Program-made: the position numbers and the translations under genes
Part shown: positions 5,266 through 24,496 of the stretch, piece by piece
Numbering within the stretch: the stretch's first letter is position 1
Layout of the letters: each line of letters starts with the position of its first letter
Notes under the pieces: generated by a model
Seen by the model: only the letters and a program-made list of their open reading frames with translations
Databases searched by the model: none
What the model was told of the DNA's origin: nothing
IMG/VR virus record: IMGVR_UViG_3300043434_000519
Coordinates: 1-25,262 of that record
Reading direction: 5' to 3' (one strand)
Source: a virus
DNA length: 25,262 nucleotides

Positions 5266-7857
5266 TTATTTAGTAATACAATCAATGATGTTGATAACAC
5301 CAAACTGATTAACAACAGTAATCTTGTTAAATGATGGGGTGTATTGAATAACTGGATATGCAGATGCACCTTCTCCTGTTGTTGTTATTATGTCCGCAGA
5401 TCCTGGATTTTCAGAAAAATTATTACTACAAATACCAGCAATAGAAGTAACACCAACTATAGAACCAGTTGGTGTTACTATTACATTATAGGTACACTCA
5501 CCAAATCTAATAGTATCACCAGATGTATATCCAAATCCAGGATTTTTAATAACGATATTGGTTATTATTCCTACAACATTAGTTCCTATTCCAGCAAATG
5601 TTCCTATTCCAGCAAATGTTCCTATTCCTGGGAATGGAACTAAATTACCAGAAATTGAGGTAGTTCCAATTCCAGTATTTCCACCAAAATCATCTGGAAT
5701 TGGAGTTCCAGGTGGAGATTCATTTGGTTGATTAAGTGCTGGTGAAAGAGTTGGAGCAAGTCTATTTCCTATAATTATTGTTGTTTTTGCAACATAATCT
5801 TCATCTGGATCATATAAATTAAATACCATTGTTTCGACAGGTTCTGTCAAACTATCTTGTCTAATTTTTACTGGTATTTGAGCAGTATTATTGACTATTT
5901 TTATTTTTCCAGAAAGTGACAATAAATCCAAATCTTCTATCTTTACGTCACCAGTTATTTCATAATACAATTCTATATTATCTGCGACATTGGTAGTGGT
6001 TATGGTAAAGTTTACTGTTTCTCCCTCAAATACTGTATACCTATCAGCAGAAACCACATAAGTTGGAGAAACAAGGAAACTTGAATAGTCTCCTGGACAA
6101 TACCCAGACCCAGGATTTAGTACATAGATAGATTCAATTCTTCCATCGACAATTTTTGCCTCAAGTTCAGCACCAGAACCATGATTTGTGTTATCTATTA
6201 CATTTACTGATGGTGGACTAGTATATCCCTTCCCTGGATTTAATACCTGAACAGTAAGTACAGAACCATCATTTCCAACAATCGGAACTGCCTGTGCATT
6301 TATTCCTGTGCCAAATATTTCTATAACTGGTGGAATACATGTTGATGATTTCACTCCAGGAGGCATTGGAGTTTTTTCATCCTGAGATGTTGGATTTATT
6401 GCCTTTTGAGAACAATCTCTGAATGGTGATGGTCCTGTATAACCAAATAAGGAAGTAGAACCAAATGCTTGGTCAATGTCAGAATTTATTCCCTTCATAA
6501 AGTTCATTTTTTTGAGGGTTCTTGTCCAACTATCTTTTCCATTTTTGGATGGTCCAGTGTTTGAACACCATTGAGAAGCAGTCTCACATTTTAATTGATC
6601 GCAACCTATAAAATTGAGAATTTGCTGAGCAACTGAAGATACTTGGCTGAGAACTGATGTAATTTGTCCAATCCCCCCCAACAACCAATCAAGACCAGAC
6701 ATAACTGGTCCTAACAAATCATCAATAAAATCCATCAACTTGGATAAAATACCAGCAACAAATTCTTCTACAGCACATAATGGGGCATTAATTGCCCTAC
6801 CAATCATGTTAGTTAAAAGGTTAACGATGTAGTCAATAATTAGGGGAATTAATTTTTCAAATAAGCAAAATATAATATTAATAATATTCTTTGTTGCCTC
6901 TGCTACAGGAGGATGTTGGGGAAGTGGAAGAACCTTTGCGATGAAATCCCGAAATAGATTAGTAACCAGTTTAATTATTGCTCCTCTTAAATTATTAACT
7001 ATAAACTTTACAACACCAACAATTCTTCTTGCAAATCCCCTTATCTCATTTACTATATCTACAAATTCATTCAATATTGGATCAACATAAGTTCCAATAA
7101 AATCTTGTATTCTCCCAACAAATTGAATAAACTCTTGTAGTATTTTTGATATTTTTCCAATTAAATTATCATTGCATCCATTTTCTCTTGTAATGCATAT
7201 ATTTCCCTCTGCTGCAAACTGCTGAGATGCTAAATCTTCTCTAATTGCTTGGTCTGCGCCTGGTTTATTTTCTTCTCTTGCTGTCTCTACTAAATTTCCA
7301 ATTTCTTTCGAAAATGCAATATCTGTTATTGAACTTGATGATGTTTTGGGTTCTCCCTGAACACCATCATTCTGTTTTCTTATTTGGGTTGCACCTTGTC
7401 TTAGTGGACCAGTGTGACCAGTGAATGGTCTCATCTGGTCTCCAATTGATTCTTCTGGAAAATTTACGACACTTTCATTTCTATGAAGACATCCAACAAT
7501 AACTGGTTGCTGCCCGTCATCACCATCAAGAAAAAATCCAAAGGCAGTTTCCCCACCAGTTAATCTTAATGTTTGACCCACACCTCCTTGGTATGTTCCT
7601 TCTGCACCAGTTGCCATTACATGTGCCCACGGCAAATCATTATCGGGGAGAACATTTCTATCAAATGGATGATATCCAATAATTCTTACTTTGCATCGAT
7701 ATGCCCAACTGCCACCAGTCTTGCCTTTTTTGTTTTCACCAGCATCTAGTGCAGACTTTTCATCTCTCCATACCTTTGCAGGGGCAACCTGACCAATCCA
7801 CCAAATGAATCCGTCTTTGCCCAAATAATTTGATTTTAATAAAGAACCTTCAATCAT
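5266..7857 (-). CDS. 5: gp5-like baseplate hub protein without lysozyme domain
   Basis: The start at 7857 (MIEGSLLKSNYLGKDGFIWW, 863 residues) overlaps the previous gene's stop by 8 nt, suggesting coupled translation. Residues 1-130 match the gp5 OB-fold: GKDGFIWWIGQV, then RCKVRIIGYHP, DLPWAHVMA, GFFLDGDDGQQPVIVGCL. In T4 this domain trimerises on gp27 and is followed by a lysozyme and a needle. Here neither follows. Instead there is a long hydrophobic/amphipathic helical region (about residues 235-440), two GYTSPPSV/GYCPGDY-type modules (about 540-600), a Calx-beta-like Ig-fold segment starting YTVFEGETVNFTITT (about 610-700), a tandem FAGIGT repeat and a Cys-containing C-terminus. The absence of the lysozyme suggests the lytic role lies in the two large upstream proteins. 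Confidence 0.8.
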   Translation of the reverse strand: MIEGSLLKSNYLGKDGFIWWIGQVAPAKVWRDEKSALDAGENKKGKTGGSWAYRCKVRIIGYHPFDRNVLPDNDLPWAHVMATGAEGTYQGGVGQTLRLTGGETAFGFFLDGDDGQQPVIVGCLHRNESVVNFPEESIGDQMRPFTGHTGPLRQGATQIRKQNDGVQGEPKTSSSSITDIAFSKEIGNLVETAREENKPGADQAIREDLASQQFAAEGNICITRENGCNDNLIGKISKILQEFIQFVGRIQDFIGTYVDPILNEFVDIVNEIRGFARRIVGVVKFIVNNLRGAIIKLVTNLFRDFIAKVLPLPQHPPVAEATKNIINIIFCLFEKLIPLIIDYIVNLLTNMIGRAINAPLCAVEEFVAGILSKLMDFIDDLLGPVMSGLDWLLGGIGQITSVLSQVSSVAQQILNFIGCDQLKCETASQWCSNTGPSKNGKDSWTRTLKKMNFMKGINSDIDQAFGSTSLFGYTGPSPFRDCSQKAINPTSQDEKTPMPPGVKSSTCIPPVIEIFGTGINAQAVPIVGNDGSVLTVQVLNPGKGYTSPPSVNVIDNTNHGSGAELEAKIVDGRIESIYVLNPGSGYCPGDYSSFLVSPTYVVSADRYTVFEGETVNFTITTTNVADNIELYYEITGDVKIEDLDLLSLSGKIKIVNNTAQIPVKIRQDSLTEPVETMVFNLYDPDEDYVAKTTIIIGNRLAPTLSPALNQPNESPPGTPIPDDFGGNTGIGTTSISGNLVPFPGIGTFAGIGTFAGIGTNVVGIITNIVIKNPGFGYTSGDTIRFGECTYNVIVTPTGSIVGVTSIAGICSNNFSENPGSADIITTTGEGASAYPVIQYTPSFNKITVVNQFGVINIIDCITK
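5582..5635. repeat. Three tandem 18-bp repeats inside the gp5-like gene
   Basis: The 18-base unit gttcctattccagcaaat occurs at 5582-5599 and again, identical, at 5600-5617. A diverged third copy covers 5618-5635. On the minus strand the units encode FAGIGT-like hexapeptides. Exact copies imply recent slippage or a homogenised repeat. Confidence 0.9.
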
Positions 7858-24108: not shown

Positions 24109-24206
24109 TATCTATTACCAACAAGTTGAGCAATAGATGCTTGATGACGACGATCTTGCTTTTGTTTTTGCTCTTTAATGAGTTGAAGTATGTTAATTTT
24201 CTTCAT
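24108..24206 (-). CDS. Tiny basic peptide (32 aa), second gene of micro-operon
   Basis: ATG at 24206, stop at 24108-24110. The peptide starts MKKINILQLIKEQKQKQDRR and continues HQASIAQLVGNR: one amphipathic basic helix rich in Lys/Gln. It overlaps both neighbours by a TAATG junction, the best evidence that it is translated. I do not recognise it; no SD motif of its own is seen beyond the coupling. Confidence 0.55.
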   Translation of the reverse strand: MKKINILQLIKEQKQKQDRRHQASIAQLVGNR

Positions 24207-24343
24207 TACTTATGCCCCTCTTTTACAAACTTAACACCACGATAAGTTTCATTATACTGTTGGGGTTGTTGCATCATTTGTTGCTGGTACTGAAGACGCT
24301 TTTCGGTATCGTATTCAATACCACGATATACTACTTTAGACAT
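24206..24343 (-). CDS. DUF4278-like YRG peptide controlled by riboswitch-like leader
   Basis: I chose the ATG at 24343 (MSKVVYRGIEYDTEKRLQYQ, 45 residues): GGAGG stands 9 nt upstream, and the longer frame to 24403 would run through the structured leader. The peptide has two YRG motifs, VVYRGIEY at the N-terminus and ETYRGVKF near the C-terminus, linked by a Gln/Met-rich stretch. YRG-x-x-Y/F is the hallmark of cyanobacterial DUF4278 proteins. A short peptide right behind a glnA/Downstream-peptide-type RNA is just the arrangement after which that RNA class is named. A role in tuning host nitrogen metabolism is inference. It is the first of three coupled genes. Confidence 0.78.
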   Translation of the reverse strand: MSKVVYRGIEYDTEKRLQYQQQMMQQPQQYNETYRGVKFVKEGHK

Positions 24344-24344
24344 T

Positions 24345-24357
24345 AGGATTTTCCTCC
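24345..24357 (-). promoter_or_regulatory. SD-masking hairpin before the YRG peptide
   Basis: AGGA (24352-24355) can pair with TCCT (24345-24348) around AAA, hiding most of the GGAGG ribosome site (24353-24357) two bases before the ATG. It is a candidate expression platform for the upstream aptamers. Confidence 0.55.
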
Positions 24358-24370
24358 AGAATGAGATTAT

Positions 24371-24466
24371 TAGTCCCGTTCCTTCGGGCGGTTTGCGTCC
24401 CATTGGGATGAACGATCCGTTCCGCCGTCCTACTTGCGTCAGAGATTCCTCTGATGAACGTAGGGT
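24371..24466 (-). promoter_or_regulatory. Tandem glutamine-riboswitch-like leader (glnA/Downstream-peptide type)
   Basis: Read on the minus strand. Unit 1: CCTAC (24460-24464) pairs with GTAGG (24429-24433), enclosing CGTTCATC, a 5-bp hairpin CAGAG-GAAT-CTCTG (24440-24453), then GACGCAA. These core bases (CGUUCA before the hairpin, GACG-AAGUAGG after it) match the glutamine-aptamer core as I remember it. Unit 2 repeats CGTTCATC (24407-24414) and GACGCAA (24393-24399) around a short CCC-AAT-GGG hairpin, but GTAGG is replaced by a CCG that may pair with CGG or GGCGG upstream. A last hairpin CCCG-AAGGAA-CGGG (24375-24388) follows. No covariance model could be run. Confidence 0.72.
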
Positions 24467-24467
24467 C

Positions 24468-24496
24468 AGTTTAGACCCGATTTTCTATATAGTCAA
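24468..24496 (-). promoter_or_regulatory. Sigma70-type promoter of the riboswitch leader
   Basis: -35 TTGACT (24491-24496), exactly 17 nt, -10 TAAACT (24468-24473) on the minus strand. Transcription would start at about 24460-24463, right at the first aptamer stem, so the leader is nearly all aptamer. Confidence 0.75.

Follow-up and report, generated by a model that had tools for sequence, protein, structure and literature searches.

The window analysed here is a 25,262-base virus fragment from IMG/VR, with the gene content of a T4-like cyanophage. Genes for thymidylate synthase and PhoH are found close to the element described below (names from the similarity of the region to annotated cyanophages), and in S-PM2, Bellamy, S-CAM7 and S-SM2 the same element is followed by a short gene and then by thymidylate synthase. 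Gene content and locus order agree with the cyanophage origin assumed in the original prediction, which had been made from the sequence alone. A promoter, two copies each of CGTTCATC and GACGCAA, a short leader and a 45-aa gene occupy positions 24343-24496, all on the minus strand; the promoter (TTGACT-17-TAAACT), both repeats, the SD and the gene (ATG at 24343) lie exactly where they had been predicted. The features, named after the fold discussed below, are the following.

24491-24496, minus strand: -35 element TTGACT, with a 17-nt spacer; family-wide the promoter reads TTGACT-17/18-TATAAT
24468-24473, minus strand: -10 element TAAACT (family consensus TATAAT), inside the inverted repeat GGGTC-TAAACT-GACCC (24478-24463)
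24460-24453 and 24414-24407, minus strand: the two copies of CGTTCATC, seen in the sequence
24440-24434 and 24399-24393, minus strand: the two copies of GACGCAA, seen in the sequence
24423-24418 and 24382-24377, minus strand: two copies of GGAACG, seen in the sequence
24456-24460, minus strand: 5′ strand CGUUC of the outer P1, pairing with 24381-24377
24439-24454, minus strand: outer P2 hairpin UCAGAGGAAUCUCUGA, strongly covarying; site of nested ORF1 in 97/440 relatives
24434-24438, minus strand: CGCAA of the outer core; C 24436 is nucleotide 23, with partner G 24376, paired in 440/440 loci
24429-24433, minus strand: GUAGG, loop-E strand of the outer core, in the first copy only; its last G closes P3 with C 24387
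24425-24427, minus strand: P3 5′ strand CGG, pairing with CCG 24391-24389; P3 covaries across classes
24418-24422, minus strand: 5′ strand GAACG of the inner P1′, pairing with CGUUC 24414-24410
24415-24417, minus strand: inner P1′ loop GAU; G 24417 is the inner nucleotide 60, with partner C 24395
24410-24414, minus strand: 3′ strand CGUUC of the inner P1′ (RNAfold, RNAalifold)
24398-24408, minus strand: inner P2′ hairpin UCCCAAUGGGA, covarying; site of nested ORF2 in 180/440 relatives
24393-24397, minus strand: CGCAA of the inner core; C 24395 is the inner nucleotide 23
24389-24391, minus strand: P3 3′ strand CCG, pairing with 24425-24427
24377-24386, minus strand: CGAAGGAACG, comprising the loop-E partner GAAG and the outer P1 3′ strand GAACG (24381-24377), from the covariance-model alignment
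24376, minus strand: outer nucleotide 60 (G), partner of C 24436
24353-24357, minus strand: Shine-Dalgarno (SD) GGAGG of the downstream gene
24206-24343, minus strand: 45-aa DUF4278-like gene MSKVVYRGIEYDTEK... (PHROG 5049), from Pfam and PHROG matches

The 45-aa product is a short DUF4278-like YRG protein, which matches PHROG 5049 with an E-value of 1e-11 and DUF4278 (PF14105) with 19.4 bits (E 0.0014), below the Pfam gathering score of 25.3. Among the related loci a short ORF lies within reach in 401 of the 411 that have enough downstream sequence; 328 downstream ORFs carry an N-terminal YRG-type motif, and in 14 others inspected YRG is located further in. Judged by these motifs, a DUF4278-type gene follows the element in nearly all relatives and in the window. 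IF17, the inactivating factor of host glutamine synthetase, has DUF4278 as its N-terminal part, and glutamine-I riboswitches are tied to DUF4278 genes in cyanobacteria (PMC6316151).

The leader had been predicted to contain a tandem glutamine aptamer, a decayed second copy and a single Downstream-peptide RNA with a pseudoknot being the alternatives. At the curated Rfam cut-offs no match is found within the window. With relaxed limits the proposed covariance-model scan does give a signal: the glutamine-I model RF01739 (cut-off 35 bits) assigns 32.9 bits (E 1e-5) to the second half of the element and 17.6 bits to the first. Several relatives pass this cut-off (L042, 50.2 bits; L837, 42.9 bits; L119, 35.8 bits), and the model aligns L042 and L837 as single aptamers with 46 and 48 nt, respectively, inserted in P3. 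In S-CREM1 (L501) and S-PM2 (L498) the search favours the second half alone at 33 bits, as in the window. The shortfall of the window most likely results from the insertion in P3, for which reason the element is filed as a glutamine-I variant and not as an exact member of RF01739. To rely on a match at the cut-off would have been misleading, since the window element falls below it although relatives pass. A model of the whole element finds the window at a single place with 78.1 bits (E 3e-19), the window being one of its 58 training rows; on this score the element is not a chance match.

A glutamine-II (Downstream-peptide, RF01704) RNA with an H-type pseudoknot is suggested by the segments CGCA and GGAACGGG, which resemble that family, and by weak matches of 22.3 bits in the window and 27.3 and 24.6 bits in relatives. 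All scores in everything tested, however, stay below the cut-off of 33 bits, whereas the whole element of L042 scores 50.2 bits with RF01739, and loop E, P3 and the partner of nucleotide 23 fit glutamine-I instead. On these scores and the fold the glutamine-II reading was rejected, and it is scarcely credible.

Taken alone, the Rfam scores look like one good and one poor copy of a tandem. An arrangement of two consecutive, separate glutamine-I aptamers, each with its own P1 and joined by a kissing contact in the T1/T2 helix, would account for the presence of CGUUC, P2, ACGCAA and GGAACG in each half and for the score that the second half reaches by itself. Tandem glutamine riboswitches are known (PMC2864571, PMC9481103), and one of the loci collected here, L016, is an ordinary one. 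The halves of the window element are, however, complementary rather than equivalent: the first has GUAGG but no GAAGG, the second GAAGG but no GUAGG, and no half carries both. As an alternative to the tandem, the outer P1 strands of the two halves may pair with each other, so that P3 is extended into a second junction and one aptamer is nested within the other.

The two arrangements were compared in at least 440 loci with both halves, obtained from pattern scans of viral contigs and from ten named phage records. The scan patterns demanded GTARG, GGAACG and CGTTCA; the invariance of P1 and P1′ is therefore partly built in, and these helices cannot discriminate between the folds by covariation. 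The tested pairs were left free by the patterns, one scan fixing x1 alone and another only the first nucleotide after GAACG(1). Scans for P1′ variants and a pattern scan of genome contigs gave matches dominated by chance.

A discriminating contact is provided by nucleotide 23, the x of ACGxAA, which in the glutamine-I structures of Ren et al. from 2015 reportedly pairs over a long range with nucleotide 60, immediately 3′ of P1. The published sequence of a bound glutamine-I RNA is consistent with this pair (PMC5393176). In the nested fold the x of the first half should match the nucleotide after the second GAACG, and in the tandem the nucleotide after the first. The nested register pairs in 440/440 loci (289 C-G and 151 G-C, counts that do not mirror natural frequencies because the two scans just mentioned picked unusual variants), with compensatory changes. 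In the tandem register standard pairs form in only 249/440 loci for each unit, the first failing in 191/440 and the second in 191/440. The inner 23-60 pair of the nested fold forms in 406/440 loci (C-G 330, G-C 64, U-A 6, G-U 6); most exceptions are four-nucleotide NNGY loops with x2 = C, of which the third nucleotide could be a stand-in partner. All four combinations of outer and inner pair states occur among the 440 loci. Mapped onto a tree of the downstream gene, the 23-60 pair of the outer core undergoes 32 Fitch changes, x1 and n60 switching together each time; this number is an upper guess of independent events, the gene being short and recombination possible.

Alignment A1, comprising 58 distinct sequences, leads to the same result. 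The nested structure pairs 93.1% of its cells, with 233 double-change cells as against 73 in shuffles, and alignment pair 37-123 is formed in 58/58 sequences with 16 double changes, whereas the tandem versions of the 23-60 pairs form in 50.0% and 51.7%. P2 and P2′ covary across the alignment, P2 strongly. P3, taken as the nucleotides after GUAGG against those before (C/U)GAAGG, has 37 distinct combinations, in which 158 of 185 core pairs are formed; shuffling, which ignores relatedness, gives 131.8 ± 3.4 and reaches the observed value in 0/5000 trials. Examples range from a perfect UUAACG/CGUUAA (L039) to a bulged CG(U)GUG/CACCG (L094, L108). In the window's class P3 has only 3 bp, and in longer classes its central pair is often A-C. 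The comparison with related cyanophages proposed at the outset has thus revealed compensatory changes in the 23-60 pairs, P2, P2′ and P3.

Structure prediction agrees with nesting. Unconstrained RNAalifold returns the outer P1, P2, the inner hairpin and P2′, and RNAfold finds the outer P1, P2 and the inner hairpin in the window, with a z-score of just -0.87. The nested fold is better by about 4 kcal/mol (-19.6/-20.0 versus -15.6 kcal/mol for the tandem). The hallmarks of RF01739 are present in the nested arrangement: P1 (CGUUC/GAACG), P2 and P3 surround a three-way junction, and the loop-E strands GAAGUA(A/G) and GAAG are represented by CAAGUAGG and CGAAGG in the window and conserved in alignment A1. 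The window's CAAGUA is a variant of GAAGUA, and its inner core has no loop E. The outer shell takes GUAGG from the first half and GAAGGAACG from the second. Units that are each complete with their own 23-60 pair are not found, tandem partners pairing in 50-52% of distinct sequences. The tandem model, with 23-60 pairs that fail in more than 40% of loci and about half of the distinct sequences, was rejected on this test and must be considered very improbable. The glutamine-aptamer identity that had been predicted holds, supported by the RF01739 matches and by glutamine-I features in 440 relatives; what changes is the count of aptamers to which the two half-motifs belong. They very probably constitute one glutamine-I aptamer, judging from the covariation, with P3 capped by a circularly permuted core.

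This inner core (GAACG-loop-CGUUC, A, P2′, ACGxAA and P3) has, at the level of sequence motifs, the cyclic order of the glutamine-I junction, opened at P3 and closed at P1, which makes it a circular permutation of the glutamine-I core. The absence of GTAGG from the second copy was correctly observed, but it is not a loss: the loop-E strand is normally confined to the outer core, and most loci lack inner GUA/GAA strands. In six loci (L532, L645, L653, L692, L727 and L729) loop-E-like GUA/GAA strands occur in the inner core as well. The inner 23-60 pair swaps to G-C in 64 loci, so the inner core is not a decayed copy, and decay of the second unit, one of the predicted alternatives, was rejected on these compensatory changes. 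The 23-60 pair adjoins the ligand pocket in glutamine-I, and its inner equivalent is under compensatory selection; together with the six loop-E loci this makes a second glutamine site plausible. The inner core may instead be a ligand-free structural lid, in the strong form a decayed remnant, in line with the missing loop-E strands of most loci. The persistence of the inner CGUUC/GAACG, ACGxAA and P2′ in hundreds of loci, together with the compensatory inner 23-60 changes, excludes the strong form but leaves a purely structural inner domain unaffected. Such a domain is possible, though rather less than probable. P2′ measures 22 nt in 94 loci, and a recurrent 22-nt hairpin TTCGCTATT-CGCAAATAGCGAA, or a close variant, is seen as P2′ (for example in L611, L654, L655 and L681) and as P2 in L587; it is possibly a spreading repeat or a protein site.

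In many relatives the aptamer loops house genes. ORF-sized inserts occur in P2 in 97/440 loci, in P2′ in 180/440 and in both in 40, and an ORF is present in 97/97 P2 and 179/180 P2′ inserts, starting 9-21 nt, and nearly always 9-12 nt, from the start of CGTTCA (CGTTCATCCTATG...). The P2 ORFs often stop with TAG or TAA directly at GACGCAA, and the P2′ ORFs typically continue across GACGCAA to end at the UGA/UAA that the aptamer has ahead of AGGAACG. Their pooled pN/pS of 0.32 (P2) and 0.28 (P2′), about 0.3, marks them as coding. On either side of the ORFs the stem ends are complementary over a mean of 5.7 and 6.0 bp, as against 4.2 and 3.8 bp in shuffled sequences (0/2000), so the P2 and P2′ hairpins are kept despite housing genes. 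Examples of the nested ORFs fall into PHROGs 504, 6471 and 13397, all of unknown function. The P1′ loop GAG, which provides GGAG upstream of the P2′ ORF, commonly accompanies that ORF (60 loci) and is not among the commonest loops of loci without it. In L121 and L136 a 549-nt insert is located in the inner P1′ loop itself; that of L121 encodes a 189-codon ORF with similarity to HNH/homing endonucleases, ending in P2′. The P2, P2′ and P1′ loops of the window contain no nested ORF. A side observation concerns the C-termini DAND* and DAKAD* of P2′ ORFs (e.g. L741, L742 and L730), which are encoded by the aptamer's own sequence of the GACGCAAACGACTGA / GACGCAAAAGCCGACTGA type, so that RNA and protein constraints overlap.

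The promoter, too, is a feature of the family. Among 331 distinct upstream regions of relatives the best -10 box is exactly TATAAT in 177, and the box most often lies 7-8 nt 5′ of the first CGTTC (207/331), with a spacer of usually 17-18 nt to TTGAC-like -35 boxes. By this comparison TAAACT in the window is a degenerate form of the family TATAAT, and from the position of the box the transcript is expected to start at about the first nucleotide of P1. The -10 box is also situated in the loop of an inverted repeat (24463-24478, minus strand), likewise upstream of relatives, the arms of which differ between phages and remain complementary (mean length 4.8 versus 3.0 in shuffled sequences). Since the left arm is upstream of the expected transcript start, the repeat may act in DNA or in read-through RNA.

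How the fold may act on the downstream gene was examined from the predicted accessibility of its SD. In the class with x1 = G, the sequence CUCUUU starts at nucleotide 60, right after P1, and is able to pair with the SD AAGGAG; in hosts, GCCUC/GAGGC could pair likewise. For this class the predicted accessibility increases from 0.13 to 0.35 once P1 and n60 are occupied, which fits an ON switch like that of the host. In the window's class the predicted values differ little, 0.26 in the free RNA and 0.40 with the aptamer formed, so that the sign of control is taken from analogy only. The predicted SD-masking hairpin (AGGA/UCCU) has its elements in the window and is not general among relatives. 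A translational switch near the 3′ strand of the outer P1 is likely.

In the proposed mechanism the 85-nt 5′ leader RNA, beginning at about the first P1 nucleotide, very probably adopts the fold of a nested double glutamine-I riboswitch. Its outer aptamer is complete, with P1 (24460-24456/24381-24377), P2, loop E (GUAGG + GAAG) and the 23-60 pair, and the P3 stem ends in an inner three-way junction that repeats the P1/P2/ACGCAA core as a circular permutation. Binding of L-glutamine would lock P1 and the 23-60 pair beside the leader of the DUF4278 gene, and the locked fold would control translation of that gene, probably as an ON switch by analogy with cyanobacteria. The inner core would probably bind glutamine too, giving two sites in one fold, and in relatives with genes in the P2, P2′ or P1′ loops folding of the aptamer should affect their start codons. 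The comparative sequence data document the fold, the nesting, the promoter, the gene association and the coding constraint on the nested ORFs. The full reading goes further: two aptamers, one of them permuted, would share P3 in a head-to-head nested arrangement and would both bind glutamine, the start codons of the loop genes would close with the aptamer, and host glutamine would act through one RNA on the DUF4278 gene as well as on one or two internal genes. It is offered tentatively, as falling somewhat short of probable. On the biological side, the element suggests that phages infecting marine cyanobacteria sense the glutamine of their hosts and control a DUF4278-type protein accordingly.

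The closest known system is the glutamine-I riboswitch (glnA RNA, RF01739; crystal structures 5DDO/5DDP), with which the phage element shares P1 (CGUUC/GAACG), P2, loop E (GAAGUA/GAAG), P3, the 23-60 pair and the downstream DUF4278 gene. Among 386 sampled cyanobacterial genomes, 23 had matches to R1, a covariance model built for the nested element, the host matches listed being 50-76 nt long; the 19 examined in full prove to be ordinary single aptamers, each with G23-C60, equivalent to the outer shell without the inner module, and with the filters used no nested element was seen in these host genomes. The phage element differs in that a second core of the same aptamer, circularly permuted, caps its P3, in that 23-60 is C-G in the window and most relatives found but G-C in every host copy examined, and in that its P2, P2′ and P1′ loops can hold genes. 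It is regarded as a new glutamine-I variant.

Published tandem glutamine-I riboswitches (Weinberg 2010; PMC2864571; 157 doublets and 4 triplets in PMC9481103) likewise carry the core motif twice within a single leader. In true tandems, however, both units are complete and separate, whereas in the phage element the two units have swapped halves and one is enclosed by the other; nested elements may be present among the published glutamine doublets. The ordinary tandem mentioned above (L016 3696-3808, minus strand) consists of two complete glutamine-I aptamers of 62.5 and 55.1 bits. On the contig of locus L007 a PhotoRC-II RNA was also seen (6940-7035). Glutamine-II (RF01704; 6QN3) has CGUUCA, CGCA and GGAACGG segments in common with the element, has according to the literature the same kind of ligand pocket and, like the phage inner core, has no loop E. 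The phage element differs by the absence of the H-type pseudoknot hairpin, by the permuted segments of its inner core and by scores below the cut-off.

Glutamine riboswitches in phages are already known (PMC9964418, PMC9004378). An element of this kind (L501) is present in Synechococcus phage S-CREM1 (OP535465), where its annotation is a single 99-nt glnA riboswitch, and the consulted part of that description mentions neither a nested second core nor a class-wide architecture (PMC9964418). The accessible literature searched gave no description of the nesting, of a permuted inner core or of loop genes. The element would represent a natural riboswitch made by inserting one aptamer into the stem of another with permuted strand order, an architecture kept in hundreds of cyanophage contigs and a test case for cooperative sensing without tandem repeats. 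Genes housed within RNA loops are familiar from group I introns; here, conserved genes reside inside the loops of an aptamer, for which no riboswitch paper was found in the accessible literature searched.
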